In this document: in pieces, positions 7,185 to 40,097 of the stretch | Layout: the number at the start of each line of letters is the position of its first letter | How positions within the stretch are numbered: position 1 is the first letter of the stretch | Assembly (NCBI GenBank): GCA_025937835.1 | Contig: JAICQO010000004.1 | Coordinates: forward strand, 62,001-126,000 | Reading direction: 5' to 3' | From: Polyangiaceae bacterium | GTDB taxonomy: Bacteria > Myxococcota_A > Polyangia > Polyangiales > Polyangiaceae | Length of the DNA stretch: 64,000 nt | The notes under the pieces: model-generated | What the model was told of the DNA's origin: nothing | Database searches by the model: none | The model's input: only the letters and a program-made list of their open reading frames with translations | Program-made: the position numbers and the translations under genes

Positions 7185-8009
7185 TTAGCGGAGGAGGCCC
7201 AGCGCGGTCTGCGGGATCTGGTTGGCCTGCGCCAAGACCGAGACACCCGCTTGCGTCAGCACCTGGTTCCGCGACATCTTCGCGGTCTCTTCGGCGACGT
7301 CCACGTCCACGATGCGCGAGTTCGCAGCGGACAGGTTCGTGCGCATCGTCTGGATGTTGCTGGTAGCAACCTGCAGACGGTTCATCGCGCTACCGAAGTT
7401 CGAACGCGAGTCGGACACGGTCTTGATCGCGTCGTCGATCGTCTTCAGCGACGAGAGCGCCGACGAAGCGCTGGTGCCGGACAGGCTGGCTGACGTGAGC
7501 GAGCTCAGGTTCAGCGCGCCGAAGTCGACCTTGATCTGATCGGACGTGGCGTTGTTCAGACCGACCTGGAACGTCACGCTCGAGGAAGACGAGCCCACCA
7601 GCTTGATGCCGTTGAACGACGTCGAGTCCTGGATACGGGTCACTTCGTCCTTGAGCAGACCGAACTCCTTGTCCAGGTAGCCGCGGTCCTTCTCACCCAG
7701 CGAGCCGTTCGAGGCTTGCATCGCCAGCTCGCGCATACGCCCGAGAATGCCGTGCACCTCGCCCAACGCGCCTTCAGCCGTCTGCGCCATGCTGATGCCG
7801 TCGGCCGCGTTGCGCTCGGCAACGGAGTACGAACGGATCTGCGACTTCATACCTTCGGAGATGGCGAGACCGGCCGCGTCATCCGCCGCCGAGTTGACCC
7901 GGAAACCGCTGGACAGCTTGGCGAAGCTGCCCATCAGTGCCTTCTGGCTACCAGCCAGTCGACCTTGGGCCTCGAGCGACGAAATGTTGGTTTGGATATT
8001 GATTGCCAT
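7185..8009 (-). CDS. fliC: Flagellin
   Basis: 274 residues. Both conserved ends are present: N-terminal D0/D1 (INIQTNISSLEAQGRL, LSSGFRVNSAADDAAGLAI, AQTAEGALGEV) and C-terminal D1/D0 (SRIVDVDVAEETAKMSRN, QALGLLR-like end). The central variable domain is almost absent, so this is a short flagellin, similar in size to Bacillus Hag. The ATG at 8009 is preceded by GGAG 12 bases away within a small hairpin. Confidence 0.97.
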   Translation of the reverse strand: MAINIQTNISSLEAQGRLAGSQKALMGSFAKLSSGFRVNSAADDAAGLAISEGMKSQIRSYSVAERNAADGISMAQTAEGALGEVHGILGRMRELAMQASNGSLGEKDRGYLDKEFGLLKDEVTRIQDSTSFNGIKLVGSSSSSVTFQVGLNNATSDQIKVDFGALNLSSLTSASLSGTSASSALSSLKTIDDAIKTVSDSRSNFGSAMNRLQVATSNIQTMRTNLSAANSRIVDVDVAEETAKMSRNQVLTQAGVSVLAQANQIPQTALGLLR

Positions 8010-8090
8010 GACTGAAACGAACTCCTTCTTGGAGACAGTTATCGAGAGCGAAATGCTCTCGTTGCAGGCCTTGTTGGCCTGTCAAAACTC
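8010..8090 (-). promoter_or_regulatory. Flagellin leader with three hairpins; possible CsrA target
   Basis: Reading toward fliC the 80 bases before the start contain three hairpins: CAGGCC-AACAA-GGCCTG (8081-8065), CGAGAGC-ATTTC-GCTCTCG (8061-8043), and CTCC-AAGAA-GGAG (8034-8022), the last holding the Shine-Dalgarno. The AAGGA at the Shine-Dalgarno resembles the core of CsrA sites. A weak sigma-28-like -10 (CTCGATAA, 8046-8039) with GCAA 15 bases upstream overlaps the second hairpin; if it is used, only the last hairpin is in the mRNA. Confidence 0.45.
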
Positions 8091-8570
8091 ATGAACGGGA
8101 GATGCGGCCGCGGCTTGAGACGAAAAGCGAAGATCTCGAAAACTTTTTCTTGACTGTCGACCGCGCCCCACAAATGCCCATTAGAGCCGCGCGCGGCCTA
8201 CACCGCACGCTCGACGGCGCGAGCTTCGAACTCTCGTTCATTGCTGCGATGAACGGCGCCGAGCGCTTTGCGTGTAATCACGACACGCGCGCACGAACAC
8301 CTCCGTCAGCGGACAGGCGAAGCTCGCGGGCGGTGCCCGGCAGCTTGCGTCTACCCGCTCGACTTCACGAGCGGTCAGCGCATCCCGGTATCTTTAGCTT
8401 CCACCACGCCCGGCGATTTTGGGTTTTGGCTTCGTTTTCGCTGCGCTCCGGTGCTCACGTACCCTCGTACGCTCCGCTCCGGTGCTCGCAAAAGCCTCGC
8501 CAAAACCGCAAACTTGCCGGGCGGGCGTTCCTTAAGGTTCTGGGCATGGCGGTCAGCGTCTTGACGCCGA
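8091..8570. other. Gene-free region between fliC and csrA
   Basis: 480 bases without a convincing gene. The plus-strand frame through it continues antisense into csrA and shows no family resemblance. It contains the imperfect palindromic element 8408-8522 and only a poor sigma-54 match (8164-8179). The fliC promoter should lie here or in the adjacent leader. Confidence 0.5.
8408..8522. repeat. Imperfect palindromic element (about 115 bp)
   Basis: Outer arms GCCCGGC (8408-8414) and GCCGGGC (8516-8522) continue inward as similar inverted sequences with a shared GGTTTTGGC core. The centre carries a direct repeat GCTCCGGTGCTC. The layout resembles intergenic REP- or MITE-like hairpins of proteobacterial genomes. 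Confidence 0.55.
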
Positions 8571-8870
8571 CTACGCCGACTGACTGGCGGTCTGCTCGGC
8601 GACCGGTTGCACGGCGCTTTCGCTGCCCTCGGGCTCGGCCGCGGGCTCGGCCTCTGCAGCGGCTGCCTGGGGCGGCAGCTCGAGGCCGCTTTCGGCTGCC
8701 GCGCGGTTCGCCTCGACGATCGCGTCGAAGACCTCTCCGCGCAGGATGGAGCAGTGGTTCGGGGCGCGAACCGCGATTTTGACGGACGTCCTCGACGTCT
8801 GGGTCACGATGATCTCGATTTCGTTCGAGATCACGATGCGCTGTCCTTTGCGTCGTGAGAAAACCAGCAT
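8571..8870 (-). CDS. csrA: Carbon storage regulator CsrA with C-terminal extension
   Basis: 99 residues. Residues 1-60 are CsrA (MLVFSRRKGQRIVI, with Arg6 and an LRGEVF motif carrying the Arg44 equivalent that contacts RNA GGA). The remaining 39 residues are a disordered Ala/Glu/Pro-rich tail absent from enteric CsrA. In Bacillus, FliW binds CsrA through C-terminal extension contacts, and fliW is present in this window. It sits between flgL and fliC, as in bacteria with FliW-CsrA-flagellin control. A GAGGGA ribosome-binding site precedes the ATG. Confidence 0.95.
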   Translation of the reverse strand: MLVFSRRKGQRIVISNEIEIIVTQTSRTSVKIAVRAPNHCSILRGEVFDAIVEANRAAAESGLELPPQAAAAEAEPAAEPEGSESAVQPVAEQTASQSA

Positions 8871-8955
8871 ACTTCCCTCTTTTGCAGGCTTCGTGCCGAA
8901 GTTCTTGGCTACGTGCCGAAGCGTCTGCGGATCTCGAGCCCGGACCTTTCGTTTA

Positions 8956-9834
8956 CTAGATCCGAGACAGAGAGCCCAGATTCAAGATCTGCTGAGAGAC
9001 CGCGACCGCGCGCTCGAGCGCTTGGGCGAAGGTGGTGGAGGCGGAATAGGCCTCGAACGGGTCGGCGGCGCCGAGCTCGTTCGTCTGCTTATCGAGGCCG
9101 CCCTGGGCGAACTCGAGGGCGCTGTCGGCGGACATGAGCCGGTCCAGCGTTAGGCCCACGCGGCTGCGCTCGGCCACGAGCTGCGTGTGGGTGTCGTCGA
9201 TCGTGTCGAGGGACGACTGAATGCCGGAGAGGTCGTTGCTCTGCAGCGCGGTGACGAGGTCATTCAAGACCGCGAATGCGTTCTGCCCGCCCGGCTTGTT
9301 GAAGGCGTTGGGGCCGCTCGGGCTCACGGCCACCGTCACGCCGCGCCCCACCTCAAGCATCTGAGATTCGTTGTTGCCGGCGTAGTTGCCGTTGGCGTCC
9401 CAGGGCAAGGTCGTGGTGTTCGTCCCGGCGAACAGGTAGCCGCGGCTGCCCTGGGTGTTGGCCAGGCGCACCATCTCTTCGCGCAGGCTCGCCACTTCCT
9501 GAGCGAGCGAGGCGCGGCCCTCGTCCGGTAGGGTGCTGTTCGCGCCCTGCATCGCCAGCTCCTTGACCCGGAGCATCAGGTCGCTCGCTTGACCGAGGGT
9601 GTTCTCGGCGTAGTCGATGTCGCCGCGCGCGGTGCTCATGCCCTCGCGGTACTCGGTGAGCTCCTGGCGCTGCGATTTCAGGCGCACGATCTGCGCCGCG
9701 GCCATCGGGTCGTCCGACGGGGCTCCGATGCGAGACCCGGTCAGCGCCTGCTCGGCGGCCTTGGCCTGCTTCGACGACAGCTGAGTCAAGACTCGCGTCA
9801 TCGAGTTGTATCGCATCATTTCGGTTACACGCAT
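8956..9834 (-). CDS. flgL: Hook-filament junction protein FlgL
   Basis: 292 residues from the ATG at 9834. The flagellin-like N-terminus (MRVTEMMRYNSMTRVLTQLSS, KRI-like GSRIGAPSDDP) and C-terminus (ALERAVAVSQQILNLGSLSRI) are those of HAP3. It follows flgK by 2 bases. The in-frame extension to 10473 is a shadow of flgK. Confidence 0.95.
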   Translation of the reverse strand: MRVTEMMRYNSMTRVLTQLSSKQAKAAEQALTGSRIGAPSDDPMAAAQIVRLKSQRQELTEYREGMSTARGDIDYAENTLGQASDLMLRVKELAMQGANSTLPDEGRASLAQEVASLREEMVRLANTQGSRGYLFAGTNTTTLPWDANGNYAGNNESQMLEVGRGVTVAVSPSGPNAFNKPGGQNAFAVLNDLVTALQSNDLSGIQSSLDTIDDTHTQLVAERSRVGLTLDRLMSADSALEFAQGGLDKQTNELGAADPFEAYSASTTFAQALERAVAVSQQILNLGSLSRI

Positions 9835-35373: not shown

Positions 35374-36543
35374 GTGCAATACCAGACCTTCCGCGGTTCC
35401 AACGTCAACGAAGCCCTCGCCGCCGTGCGCGCCGCATTCGGGCCCGAAGCCGTCATCGATTCGACGCGCTACGTGACGAACGGCCGACGGGGTGCGATGG
35501 GGCATTCGTACGTCGAGGTGAGTGCTGCGCCGCCCGTCGAGGTGAAGGCGCCGTTCGCCGCAGCGCTCACTGCGCCGATGCCCGCGGCTGCCCCGGCGCG
35601 TTCCAGCGCGGCGCGCACGGCCTCGAGCACGCGCACGATCCCCTTCGCTCAGGCCGTGAACCCGGTCCACGAAGAGCGGCGCTCGGATCCGTCGCTCGGC
35701 TTCGACGCCGGCGCCATCGAGCAGGAGCTCCGCGCCCTCCGCGCTCTGGTCGACGAGCTGACCGCCGGCCGCACGCCGCGCGACCAGGCCCTGACCCAGC
35801 TCCGCGCCTACGGCATCGAGGGCGACTACGCCCGGCAAATCCTCAAGGGCAAGGGCCGCACCCCGAGCGCGCCGAGCGAGCTCCGCGGCTTCCTGCGTAG
35901 CGCGCTGGCCTCCGAGCTCAAGGTCGTCTCGGGCCTCCTCGAGACCAGCGGCCCGCGCTTGCTCGCCTGCGTCGGGCCCACCGGCGCCGGCAAGACCACG
36001 ACGCTGGCCAAGCTCGCGGCGCGCGCGCGGCTCGACCTCGGCGTCTCGGTCGGCGTGATCTCGCTCGACACGCACCGCGTCGGCGCCTCCGAGCAATGGA
36101 AGCGCTACGCGCGCTTGCTCGGCATCCCCTTCCACGTCGCGACCGACGCGGCGAGCTTCGCCCGCGCCGAAGCCGAGATCGACTGCGAGCTCTTGCTCGT
36201 GGACACCCCCGGACGCAGCCCCTCGGACGAGACCGACTCCTGGATGCTGCCCGAGTGCCTGGAGCGCGTCACCGAGCGCGAGATCGCCGTGCTCGCGGTG
36301 CTGCCGGCCTGGCTGACCGCCCGCGACGCCTCGCGCGTGCTCAACACCTACAAAACCCCGGCCCCCGCGGCCGTGGTCCTCACCAAGCTGGACGAAGCCA
36401 GCACGGTCGGCGGCGTTCTCCAGGCCGCGGCCGCCGGCGAGCTGCCGATCGCGTTCCTGTGCGGCGGCCCCCGCGTCCCCGACGACCTCGCGGACGCGCG
36501 CGTCGAATCCGTGCTCGACGCAGTCTTCGGCAAGCCCTCCTGA
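35374..36543 (+). CDS. flhF: SRP-type GTPase FlhF
   Basis: 389 residues. Opens MQYQTFRGSNVNEALAAVRAAFGPEAVID, the FlhF start pattern; the GTG at 35374 is chosen for this reason and because TTGGAG lies nine bases before it, although a TTG at 35359 is possible. NG domain: GPTGAGKTTTLAKLA, DTHRVGASEQW, VDTPGR, TKLDEASTVGG. FlhF sets flagellar site in polar flagellates, so a polar flagellum is suggested. No FlhG gene follows. Confidence 0.95.
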   Translation: MQYQTFRGSNVNEALAAVRAAFGPEAVIDSTRYVTNGRRGAMGHSYVEVSAAPPVEVKAPFAAALTAPMPAAAPARSSAARTASSTRTIPFAQAVNPVHEERRSDPSLGFDAGAIEQELRALRALVDELTAGRTPRDQALTQLRAYGIEGDYARQILKGKGRTPSAPSELRGFLRSALASELKVVSGLLETSGPRLLACVGPTGAGKTTTLAKLAARARLDLGVSVGVISLDTHRVGASEQWKRYARLLGIPFHVATDAASFARAEAEIDCELLLVDTPGRSPSDETDSWMLPECLERVTEREIAVLAVLPAWLTARDASRVLNTYKTPAPAAVVLTKLDEASTVGGVLQAAAAGELPIAFLCGGPRVPDDLADARVESVLDAVFGKPS

Positions 36544-36575
36544 AAGTCGACCCCTTGAACCTCGTCCCGAACACG

Positions 36576-37301
36576 ATGAACGACATCGCCCGCACGAGCC
36601 CGAACGAACAGAAGCTCTACGAGCGCTACATGCCGCTCGTGCGGCGGATTGCGATGCGCGTCGTTCGTTCCCTGCCCTCCAACATCTCGCTCGACGATCT
36701 GCTCTCCGCCGGCTGGGTTGGCCTGTCCGAGGCCCTGACCCGGCGCACGGCGACCATGAACGAGGAGCAATTCGAGGCCTACGCCTCGCACCGCGTCCGC
36801 GGCGCAATCCTCGATCACCTCAGGATGCTCGACCCGCTGTCGCGCAAGCTCCGCGGCGCGTCACGCAAGATCACCGAGGTCACCGGCACGCTCTCTGGCC
36901 GGCTCGGTCGCGCGCCGACCGAAGAAGAGATCGCCGGCGAGCTCGGCGTACCGCTCGAGGAGTACCATCAGCTGCTCGGCGACATCGCCAACGGCGGCCT
37001 GGCTCGGCTCGAGATCAGCGCCGTCGATTCGCCGGTCCACGACTCCACCCCGGAGTCATTGACGGCCCGCCGCGAGCTCGTCGATCACATCGCCTCCGCG
37101 CTCGAATCCTTGCCGGAGCGGCTGCGCATCGTGCTCGCCCTCCACTACCAAGAAGAGTGCAGCTTCCGCGAGATCGGCGAGGTGCTCGGCGTCACGGAGT
37201 CACGCATTTGCCAGCTCCACGCCGAAGCCATCCACCGCGTCCGCGCCCAGATGAGCTCCCTGCCACCCCCTGCCCCCAAGCCACGTGCTGTAAAGGGGTG
37301 A
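36576..37301 (+). CDS. fliA: Flagellar sigma-28 factor FliA
   Basis: 241 residues. Sigma regions 2 (YMPLVRRIAMRVVRSLPSNISLDDLLSAGWVGLSEAL), 3 (LSGRLGRAPTEEEIAGELG), and 4 (LPERLRIVLALHYQEECSFREIGEVLGVTESRICQLHAEAIHRVR) are complete. The ATG at 36576 is chosen; the longer frame from 36096 is flhF shadow. FlgM in the window is its antagonist. Confidence 0.95.
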   Translation: MNDIARTSPNEQKLYERYMPLVRRIAMRVVRSLPSNISLDDLLSAGWVGLSEALTRRTATMNEEQFEAYASHRVRGAILDHLRMLDPLSRKLRGASRKITEVTGTLSGRLGRAPTEEEIAGELGVPLEEYHQLLGDIANGGLARLEISAVDSPVHDSTPESLTARRELVDHIASALESLPERLRIVLALHYQEECSFREIGEVLGVTESRICQLHAEAIHRVRAQMSSLPPPAPKPRAVKG

Positions 37302-37757: not shown

Positions 37758-38234
37758 ATGATCGTGAATACCCGGCGCTTTGGCGAAATCGAAATCGAAC
37801 CCCGTGAGGTCGTGCACTTCCCGGTGGGAATTGCTGGTTTCCCCGAGGAGCGCGCGTTCATCCTGGTCCGTACCAAGGAGACGGGGTCCATCGCCTGGCT
37901 GCAGTCGGTGCGCACTCCGGGCCTGGCGCTGCCGCTCGTGTCGGCGCACCTGTTCGGTGAAGCCTATCCCGACGTCAACTACCTGCCGATCGCGGAGAGC
38001 GCCGGCATCGGCTCGAGCCTCGAAGAGCTGGCCATGATGGTGGTCCTCAGCGCTCCACAAGGCGCGCCCGCGACCGTCAATCTGCTGGCTCCGATCGTCA
38101 TCAACACCGAGAGCCGCATCGGCGGCCAGCTGTTCCTCGACGGGACCTCGTTCGGCACGCGGGAGATGTTCGTGATCCCCGACGCGGCGAAGTCGTCGTC
38201 CGCGGCGCAGCCGCAGATGAGCGCGACCGGCTGA
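37758..38234 (+). CDS. fliW: Flagellar assembly factor FliW (CsrA antagonist)
   Basis: 158 residues. MIVNTRRFGEIEIEPREVVHFPVGIAGFPEERAFILV and DVNYLPI...VVLSAPQGAPATVNLLAPIVINTESRIGGQLFLD are the FliW fold. FliW binds either flagellin or CsrA; when flagellin is exported, FliW is freed to bind CsrA and relieve its block on flagellin translation. TAGGAG precedes the ATG. Own sigma-54 promoter upstream. Confidence 0.96.
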   Translation: MIVNTRRFGEIEIEPREVVHFPVGIAGFPEERAFILVRTKETGSIAWLQSVRTPGLALPLVSAHLFGEAYPDVNYLPIAESAGIGSSLEELAMMVVLSAPQGAPATVNLLAPIVINTESRIGGQLFLDGTSFGTREMFVIPDAAKSSSAAQPQMSATG

Positions 38235-38294: not shown

Positions 38295-40097
38295 ATGCCT
38301 GTGTCCATCGACGAACGGCTCTGGCCACCCCTGAAAGGGGTCGACGAGAGCCGTCCGTCCGATGACGCCGCCAAGAGCAGCATGGCGGCGCTCGTCGCGC
38401 GCGTGGTCGGGGCAAAGCCCTTTCCCGAGACCGCGCGCCGCCTGGCAGACATGACGCGCATGCCGCTCGCGCGCATCAGCAACGCCGTGCGCATTCTGGA
38501 GACCGATCCGGGGCTCTCGGCGCGGCTGCTCCGGCTCGTCAACTCGCCGGGCTACGCGCTGCGAATGCGCTGCACGTCGCTGCGCCACGCCGCGGCGCTG
38601 GTCGGGCTCGAGCGACTGAACCACATCTCGACCACGGCGGCCGTGCTCGACATGTTCGGCGACAACACCGAGGTGTCGGCGCGGATCCTCGACCATTCCA
38701 CGGTCGTAGGCGCCTTCTGCCGTTACTTTGCCGTGAGCTTTTCGCTGCCCGCCGAAGAGCTCTTCACGTGCGGCTTCTTGCACGACATCGGCAAGCTGTT
38801 TCTGCTGGAGGCCGAGGGCGATGCGTACGCCGCGCTCCTCAGCCAGAGCTCGGCCGATTCGCACGAGCGCGAGCGCGAGCTCTACGGCTTCGACCACGCG
38901 AACCTCGGCGCGCACGTGCTCCACGCCTGGAACATCCCCGATCCCGTTCCGCTGATCGTGGCCTGGCACCACAGCCGCTCGCCGTTCGAAGGCCCCCCCG
39001 AGATCAGCGCGATGATCGAGACGCTCCGGCTCTCCGACGAGATCGCCGAGCTGATGGGTACCCTCTCCGACGGGCGCGCGATCCGCCGCATCGCCGAGAG
39101 CGAGGCCGCCCAGCGCCTGAACCTGGGTGAGCAGCAACTCACCGAGATCTGGCCCGAGCTCAGGACGCTGCGCTCTCACTGCCGCGCTCAGCGCAACAAC
39201 AACGAGACCAAGTTCGTGGACGTGACCTCGATTCGCCCGAGCGCCTCGCTGCCGCCACCGAGCGTGCCCCCGCAGAGCTCGCTGCGCCCGGACCAGCACT
39301 GCGGCATCTGCTCCGAGCCCGGCCCGAGCAGCACCTGCTCGGCCTGCGACGACAACGTTTGCGCGAAGCACCTGCACGCCCCCGACGGCTGGTGTGACCG
39401 CTGCATGGCCGACTTCACCACGACCCGCGGCGCGCTCGGGATCGGCTTGCCGCTGACGCTCGGCATCACGGCTGCGTTCGCGAGCCTGCTGCTCGGCGCG
39501 GTGTTCGGCGCCGTCGAAAACGGCGTCCCCCAGACGCTGCGCGTGCTCTTGGCTCCGGTGTTGGCGCTCGGCCTGTCGGCGGTGTTCCTCGGCACGGGCC
39601 AGCGTTGGATCGTGCGCGGTCGCTTCCTCAAGCAGCGCAAGCGCCGCGACCGAGAGACTCTGGCGGCACCAGAAGCCGCGCCGTCAGCCGAACGGGCCAG
39701 AGAAGCGCGGCTCACCACCCGCATCCCCGGGGTACCCGCCGTGCTCAGCGTGCCGCCCTCGGCGTTCGACGATCCGTCGCTGCGCGCCTTGCCGCAACAT
39801 CCGCTGCCTCCGCCCGCGCGCGCAGCGCTGCTCGGCAGCAGCTCGCCACCGGCGGAGCTCGCGCCAGAGCCGCCGCTCAGCGTCCTTCCCGAACCCCCGC
39901 CGTACGTGCCCACGCTGGCGCCAGCGGCCCCGCCCCCACCGCTCCAGCCCGCGACCGCGCTGGCACCACTTTCATCCCCGCCGGAGCGGGTCGAGCGGCT
40001 GCCCCTCGAGGCGCCGCGCGCCGTGTACCTCGCCGGCACGCGCATGCCGCGGCGCGGCCGCCGTCTCGACCGCGGTCAGCGCCGACGCGACTCATGA
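38295..40097 (+). CDS. HDOD protein with zinc module, two TMs and Pro-rich tail
   Basis: 600 residues. HDOD domain at about 35-275 with an HD pair (GFLHDIGK, 160-167) and WHH (224-226). Residues 336-370 form a compact Cys/His module (Cys336, Cys339, Cys348, Cys351, Cys356, His359/361, Cys367, Cys370), like a B-box or double zinc ribbon. TMs near 381-406 and 416-434, then Arg/Lys-rich and Pro/Ala/Leu-rich tail. Other HDOD proteins act in signalling and polar flagellar control. This combination is unfamiliar to me. It lies between fliW and flbD in the flagellar block. Ends in an ATGA overlap. Confidence 0.8.
   Translation: MPVSIDERLWPPLKGVDESRPSDDAAKSSMAALVARVVGAKPFPETARRLADMTRMPLARISNAVRILETDPGLSARLLRLVNSPGYALRMRCTSLRHAAALVGLERLNHISTTAAVLDMFGDNTEVSARILDHSTVVGAFCRYFAVSFSLPAEELFTCGFLHDIGKLFLLEAEGDAYAALLSQSSADSHERERELYGFDHANLGAHVLHAWNIPDPVPLIVAWHHSRSPFEGPPEISAMIETLRLSDEIAELMGTLSDGRAIRRIAESEAAQRLNLGEQQLTEIWPELRTLRSHCRAQRNNNETKFVDVTSIRPSASLPPPSVPPQSSLRPDQHCGICSEPGPSSTCSACDDNVCAKHLHAPDGWCDRCMADFTTTRGALGIGLPLTLGITAAFASLLLGAVFGAVENGVPQTLRVLLAPVLALGLSAVFLGTGQRWIVRGRFLKQRKRRDRETLAAPEAAPSAERAREARLTTRIPGVPAVLSVPPSAFDDPSLRALPQHPLPPPARAALLGSSSPPAELAPEPPLSVLPEPPPYVPTLAPAAPPPPLQPATALAPLSSPPERVERLPLEAPRAVYLAGTRMPRRGRRLDRGQRRRDS

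Follow-up and report, generated by a model that had tools for sequence, protein, structure and literature searches.

We have analysed a 64,000-nt stretch of DNA (the window) and consider it quite probable that it encodes a lineage-specific form of the flagellin-homeostasis switch of Bacillus and Campylobacter, in which the recognition loop of the flagellin message would read A-N-G-A. A switch acting on the fliC leader is supported because csrA, fliW and a hairpin over the Shine-Dalgarno sequence (SD) are jointly present or absent, because Asn55 of CsrA is invariant, and because sister families carry CsrA and FliW as a fused protein. We further propose, as a tentative reading to which we give slightly less than an even chance, that the RNA code of CsrA has changed in the clade of the window. 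On this proposal CsrA would read an A-N-G-A loop that leaves the first G of GGA unconstrained, both hairpins of the leaders would have changed accordingly, another family of the class would have departed from GGA a second time (ANGAA), and the sisters that kept GGA would have joined CsrA to FliW.

Genomic context of csrA, fliC and fliW

The three components of the partner switch, CsrA, FliW and flagellin, are all encoded in the window genome, a 6.9-Mb draft with one CsrA match, one FliW match and one flagellin match at E <= 1e-10. Both regulators are members of their Pfam families (CsrA, PF02599, 63.1 bits at a gathering cut-off of 27; FliW, PF02623, 79 bits at a cut-off of 25). The CsrA scores below the NCBIfam equivalog cut-offs (54.6 against 70.1 bits for TIGR00202 and 50.8 against 73 for NF002469), and judged by its sequence it is a divergent CsrA. 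FliW scores under the cut-offs of all six NCBIfam FliW models that it matched.

Table 1. Features of the csrA-fliC and fliA-fliW regions of the window
Feature	Position	Strand	Description
fliC	7185-8009	-	flagellin, 274 aa
Hairpin H3	8022-8034	-	CTCC-AAGAA-GGAG over the SD; ANGAN pentaloop; proposed CsrA site
Hairpin H2	8043-8061	-	CGAGAGC-ATTTC-GCTCTCG; sequence variable, hairpin kept in part of the relatives
Hairpin H1	8065-8081	-	CAGGCC-AACAA-GGCCTG; at the place of the upstream CsrA-type hairpin of relatives
sigma28-like fliC promoter	8094-8119	-	CTCAAG (8119-8114), 15 nt, CCGTT (8098-8094)
Dispersed GC-rich repeat	8439-8485		between csrA and the fliC promoter
csrA	8571-8870	-	99 aa; Pfam CsrA domain at residues 1-52
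fliA (sigma28)	36096-37301	+	adjoins fliW; FliA homology at residues 168-388 of a 401-aa frame
fliW	37758-38234	+	158 aa
HDIG-domain frame	38295-40097		600 aa; directly 3' of fliW

A sequence-only reading of this DNA had described csrA as lying immediately upstream of fliC, its product as having a 39-residue C-terminal extension, and fliW as part of the same locus. The first two genes are indeed neighbours, with 561 nt between the csrA stop and the fliC ATG, and 39 residues follow residue 60 of the 99 residues of CsrA. The placing of fliW holds in so far as the gene is encoded within the window; the fliW-fliA pair is about 29 kb away from csrA-fliC, and fliW is on the strand opposite to csrA. 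The gap between csrA and fliC holds the dispersed repeat and fliC's own sigma28-like promoter. Because the repeat, which has 11 genome copies at up to two mismatches (0 for a reversed control), lies between csrA and the promoter, fliC is expected to have its own transcript. A 226-aa frame on the plus strand (8102-8782) overlaps csrA and the fliC leader and was set aside. A FliS frame lies downstream of fliC, and around csrA-fliC are frames that we take to be FliD, FlgL and FlgK. The homology of the fliA frame is confined to its inner part, and the true start may be internal or the protein may have an N-terminal extension.

The leader of the fliC message

The RNA from position 8091 folds into H1, H2 and H3 with an MFE of -30.6, compared with a shuffled mean of -20.4 (z -3.18), and only one of 200 shuffles was equally good; the three hairpins that had been proposed for the fliC leader are thus borne out. 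One of them had been said to hold the SD with AAGGA. The SD, AAGGAG, does lie in H3, but its GGAG forms the 3' arm of the stem, leaving AAGAA as the loop. Between promoter and start codon (83 nt) there is a single GGA, that of the SD, and GGA is absent from the three hairpin loops of the window leader (AACAA, ATTTC and AAGAA). A hairpin over the flagellin SD is present here, with a loop that lacks GGA, and is conserved in relatives; a putative second CsrA-type site lies upstream in many of them. At that upstream place the AACAA loop of H1 in the window matches neither ANGA nor GGA, which counts against the switch reading. The spacing from the SD to the ATG is 12 nt in the window (8010-8021); the other 44 leaders that match CTC[CT]-N5-GG[AG]G have 4-10 nt, for the most part 6-8. 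Loop and spacing together make the window a less than ideal representative of its clade.

The H2-type hairpin was tested leader by leader, and 20 of 45 leaders beat 95% of their shuffles, with 16 distinct inner stems among those 20. A MAFFT alignment of 17 of 20 chosen leaders (G109_L072, G022_a and G022_L096 were left out) misplaced this variable middle hairpin, and RNAalifold and pair counting were dropped for that reason. In an Rfam search of window positions 7900-9000 at E up to 10, the three matches were all far below their gathering scores, so that this interval holds no described RNA family.

The promoter is presumably recognized by sigma28, a label that we base on the sigma28 consensus and on the presence of fliA. 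Its pattern, TCAAG-N14-16-CCGTT, occurs in 22 of the 76 leaders from genomes with separate CsrA and FliW proteins (split genomes; 0.02 expected in shuffles), in 6 of the 22 leaders from genomes without CsrA, and in 0 of the 29 leaders from genomes in which the two proteins are fused.

Co-occurrence of CsrA, FliW and the SD hairpin

To survey the order, we drew 144 genomes evenly from a larger group and looked in them for CsrA, FliW and flagellin, which were found in 40, 41 and 61 genomes, respectively. CsrA and FliW occur together in 39 of the 144, and there are three exceptions: G096 has CsrA only (1380 contigs), G086 has FliW only (970 contigs), and G060 has FliW as two fragments and no CsrA match. 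We collected 127 flagellin leaders (30 + 97) from 58 of the 61 flagellin-bearing genomes, leaving out G044, G060 and G082. The genomes were grouped as split (27, with leaders for 26), fused (13), and lacking CsrA (19 with leaders, including G086 with its FliW).

A strict SD hairpin, of either ANGA or GGA type, is present in 23 of 26 split and 10 of 13 fusion genomes, that is, in 33 of the 39 CsrA-bearing genomes with leaders, and in 4 of the 19 genomes without CsrA; the chance rate is 1.5% per shuffled leader. The Fisher test for this difference (p 4e-6) overstates it and is indicative only, as the genomes are related and are drafts, some with more than 1000 contigs. Under the strict rule, no SD hairpin was found in the fusion genomes G010, G081 and G083. 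The four positives without CsrA are G086, G040 (84% complete), G110 (86%) and G128 (83%), and two leaders of G040 are identical over 330 nt to those of the fusion genome G002. The strict hairpin was found in none of the 12 flagellin genomes that are at least 90% complete and have neither CsrA nor FliW. All 12 match PF00771, a flagellar export family that includes injectisome proteins too. This match was seen in 18 of the 20 genomes without CsrA that were searched (near full-length in 12 of the 20), and on the contig of the flagellin in G100, G110, G122, G129, G056 and G064. Accordingly, in at least some lineages a flagellar export apparatus persists in the absence of CsrA, FliW and the strict hairpin. 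Flagellin with no CsrA or FliW found and no strict SD hairpin was observed in G100, G129, G122, G056, G064, G009 and others. These genomes are possible natural knock-outs of the switch.

When a loop-blind pattern is added to the strict rule, 26 split, 10 fusion and 6 no-CsrA genomes are positive. One of the two added no-CsrA genomes, G061, has the pattern 25 nt from the start, probably by chance. The other, G074 (L053; 98% complete), keeps CUCU-CGGAA-GGAG with no CsrA or FliW match found, which would reflect a recent loss or a missed gene. Counted by leader, 31 of the 76 split leaders have an SD-proximal ANGAN pentaloop hairpin, where shuffles would give 0.7, and 25 of the 29 fusion leaders have an SD-proximal ANGGAN hexaloop, where shuffles would give 0.4; a motif hairpin of any kind occurs in 3 of 22 no-CsrA leaders. 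The strict rule or CTC[CT]-N5-GG[AG]G is matched by 51 of the 76 split leaders; the 25 without are often those of second flagellins, as if CsrA controlled the main flagellins only. The groups differ only weakly in folding energy (median z -1.68 for split, -1.38 for fusion and -1.01 for no CsrA).

Loop sequence of the leader hairpins

Loop letters were read in leaders in which any five letters separate CTC[CT] from GG[AG]G at most 38 nt from the start. The pattern was matched by 45 leaders of 24 genomes (split genomes and G086), and all 45 read A-N-G-A-N, the five positions being A45; A27, T6, C5, G7; G45; A45; and A37, C3, G5. The seven paralogues of G066 cover all four letters at loop position 2. 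The sole other matches among the 127 leaders are in G074 and G061, which have no CsrA, and neither reads A-N-G-A. A search for CTCCANGANGGAG-N4-9-ATG in 22 chosen genomes gave 30 matches, 25 of which start a flagellin; the reversed pattern gave 4 matches. The site of the window, with its spacing of 12, falls outside these matches.

The clade is not uniform, because four split genomes (G112, G113, G042 and G080) have one or more flagellins with a GGA loop at the SD. The sister families have AnGGA at the SD, as in CUC-AAGGAG-GAG, and often NGGAN upstream, as in GGGUC-GGGAU-GACCC, and more distant Myxococcota have GGGC-ACGGAC-GCCC and UUC-ACGGAG-GAA. Another departure from GGA was seen in f16, a family of the class (L284, L285, L336-L340, L344), with GGGC-ACGAAC-GCCC and UCC-ACGAA-GGA. 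Its members G222 and G253 are mixed, with an ANGA loop at the SD and a GGA loop upstream.

Pairs of hairpins were called by an automatic rule that considered only hairpins with GGA or ANGA in the loop. Both hairpins were found in 73 leaders, of which 28 are GA/GA, 32 are GGA/GGA and 13 are mixed, the mixed count retaining some doubtful hairpins. When one leader per genome is taken (the first), the SD and upstream loop types agree in 40 of 49, a figure inflated by shared ancestry; on the tree the split clade is one event. A single protein that reads both hairpins would yield such an agreement. In the open-access literature, searched by titles and abstract starts, we found neither an ANGA CsrA site nor a CsrA-FliW fusion; this is weak evidence, as subscription papers were mostly uncovered.

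Sequence features of CsrA

All 27 split CsrAs, that of the window among them, have Asn55, the known FliW-contact residue, as do 12 of 13 fusions, 6 of 6 f16 proteins and 18 of 19 other outgroups; the outgroups G427 and G201 gave no CsrA and were excluded from the residue counts. The CsrA of the split clade also deviates at residues close to the RNA. Leu4 is found in 4 of 27 split CsrAs, 12 of 13 fusions, 6 of 6 f16 proteins and 18 of 19 others; Thr5 in 8 of 27, 13 of 13, 6 of 6 and 17 of 19; and Gln29 in 1 of 27, 0 of 13, 4 of 6 and 15 of 19, respectively. Leu43 occurs in 20 of 27 split CsrAs, 4 of 13 fusions and 1 of 19 others, and Gly45 (25 of 27 split, 8 of 13 fusions) is non-discriminating. 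Thr5 and Gln29 contact the stem in RsmE (PMC4005645). The ANGA loops might stem from changes in the CsrA pocket, which fit the clade of the window, but f16 has ANGA with conventional residues. Since f16 keeps the conventional residues at positions 4, 5 and mostly 29, the changes in protein and loop are not tied one to one.

Fusion of CsrA and FliW

In 13 genomes CsrA, a linker and FliW are encoded in a single frame of 198-246 aa, which was also verified by a Pfam scan in four of them. With the exception of G022, these comprise every sampled CsrA-bearing genome of the order outside the family of the window. Of 377 genomes sampled across the phylum, 107 matched; the whole-length single-frame proteins among the matches listed came from six genomes, all of this order. 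In a named collection, 39 of the best 80 of 420 stretches encoding a relative were examined for an open frame; the ten best of the 39 are fusions and the other 29 are not. Fusion loci are L169-L178, and also L003-L011 and L014-L017, and the 13 genomes and 10 MAG loci overlap.

In a tree of FliW domains (51 rows), one branch (support 100/99) sets the 13 fusions apart, and a different branch (100/97) does so for the 26 split FliWs of the order. Because several outgroups and split genomes have csrA and fliW side by side in the same orientation, we infer one read-through of an ancestral csrA-fliW pair as the simplest origin of the fusions. An AlphaFold2 model of one fusion has two folded domains (mean pLDDT 78.7, pTM 0.63) and says nothing firm on their docking; its best PDB matches are FliW structures (5dmd and 5dmb), and the CsrA matches are weaker (E ~2e-3). 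With the fusions, a titration among three proteins becomes one between two. They are a simple reagent for asking how repression is relieved by flagellin and whether the 1:1:1 stoichiometry described in Bacillus is important.

Discussion

In the proposed switch, sigma28 would transcribe fliC from the putative promoter just 5' of the three hairpins, so that the message would carry all of them. A CsrA dimer would bind H3, the stem containing the SD, and block translation, and in many relatives the upstream hairpin may be a second CsrA contact. The recognition element in the clade would be the loop A-N-G-A and not A-N-G-G-A. When the hook is complete and flagellin is exported, FliW would be released from flagellin and, on homology and the invariant Asn55, is predicted to bind CsrA near residues 51-55 and free the message, and cytoplasmic flagellin would recapture FliW and close the loop. 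The alternation of FliW between CsrA and flagellin finds indirect support in the sister-family fusions. Partner switching with a hairpin-rich leader, as the sequence-only reading had it, is thus supported by the co-occurrence, Asn55 and the fusions; its proposed tail contact is not supported.

The CsrA-FliW-flaA system of C. jejuni is alike in its sigma28-dependent flagellin message, in FliW as the CsrA antagonist, in N55, and in a leader with two hairpins, of which the second covers the SD (PMC4894983, PMC7829508). On the other hand, its loops are ANGGA, whereas most leaders of the window clade natively have AAGA, AUGA or ACGA, and the Campylobacter picture of two GGA loops is not literal in the window. 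In C. jejuni, mutants of the flaA leader, including GGA to UGA in the loop of the upstream hairpin SL1, raised the Kd 4-10 fold and FlaA 2-3 fold (PMC4894983). The Hag-FliW-CsrA system of B. subtilis shares the components, N55 and the freeing of FliW by flagellin export (PMC6529632, PMC7652899, PMC13407953). There, fliW and csrA are translationally coupled, whereas they lie far apart on opposite strands in the window and are fused in the sister families. The canonical A(N)GGAX site of CsrA/RsmE is likewise a loop closed by base pairs near the SD (PMC4005645). Hydrogen bonds from the protein backbone read its core, which is described as not substitutable, with AGGGA and AAGGA pentaloops as good targets (PMC4005645), and GGA was 100% conserved in SELEX (PMC7652899), whereas the window clade frees the first G.

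A conventional CsrA has to be weighed, which would bind the GGA of the SD AAGGAG once H3 opens and for which ANGA would merely be a stable pentaloop that holds the stem. AAGGAG does contain A-A-G-G-A, a GGA occluded in structure is reported as a lower-affinity target and not a dead one (PMC4005645), and the f16 proteins combine ANGA loops with pocket residues of conventional appearance. However, this reading leaves unexplained why the loop varies at its second letter but never at letters 1, 3 and 4, and why ANGA also appears in upstream hairpins that have no GGA, as the GA/GA leaders illustrate; we consider it doubtful. H3 might also be an attenuator that works independently of protein by sequestering the SD, perhaps tuned by temperature or ribosomes, with CsrA and FliW acting elsewhere. 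The pairing CUCC:GGAG hides the SD by itself, the fold beats its shuffles, and G074 retains its hairpin. We nevertheless regard such an attenuator as very unlikely, considering that the strict hairpin is missing in the 12 genomes of at least 90% completeness without CsrA and FliW and that the sister families carry an AnGGA hairpin at the same place.

The contact between the two regulators was also open to another interpretation, as the sequence-only reading had suggested that the Ala/Glu/Pro-rich tail of CsrA is the surface that binds FliW. C-termini tend to be longer in CsrAs that co-occur with FliW (PMC7366521, PMC7829508), and in the fusions FliW occupies the place of the tail. When the tails past residue 60 were compared across the 27 split CsrAs, however, length (9-90) and composition (12-59% Ala+Glu+Pro) were not conserved and no shared sequence was evident, whereas the invariant Asn55 precedes the tail. 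Moreover, the last 15 residues of C. jejuni CsrA are dispensable for FliW binding, in which V51 and N55 matter (PMC7829508). A tail contact is, in our view, unlikely.

If the ANGA loops are indeed read by CsrA, this clade would represent a natural change in an RNA code that is read through the backbone, for which the GGA form of the sister families is a ready control.
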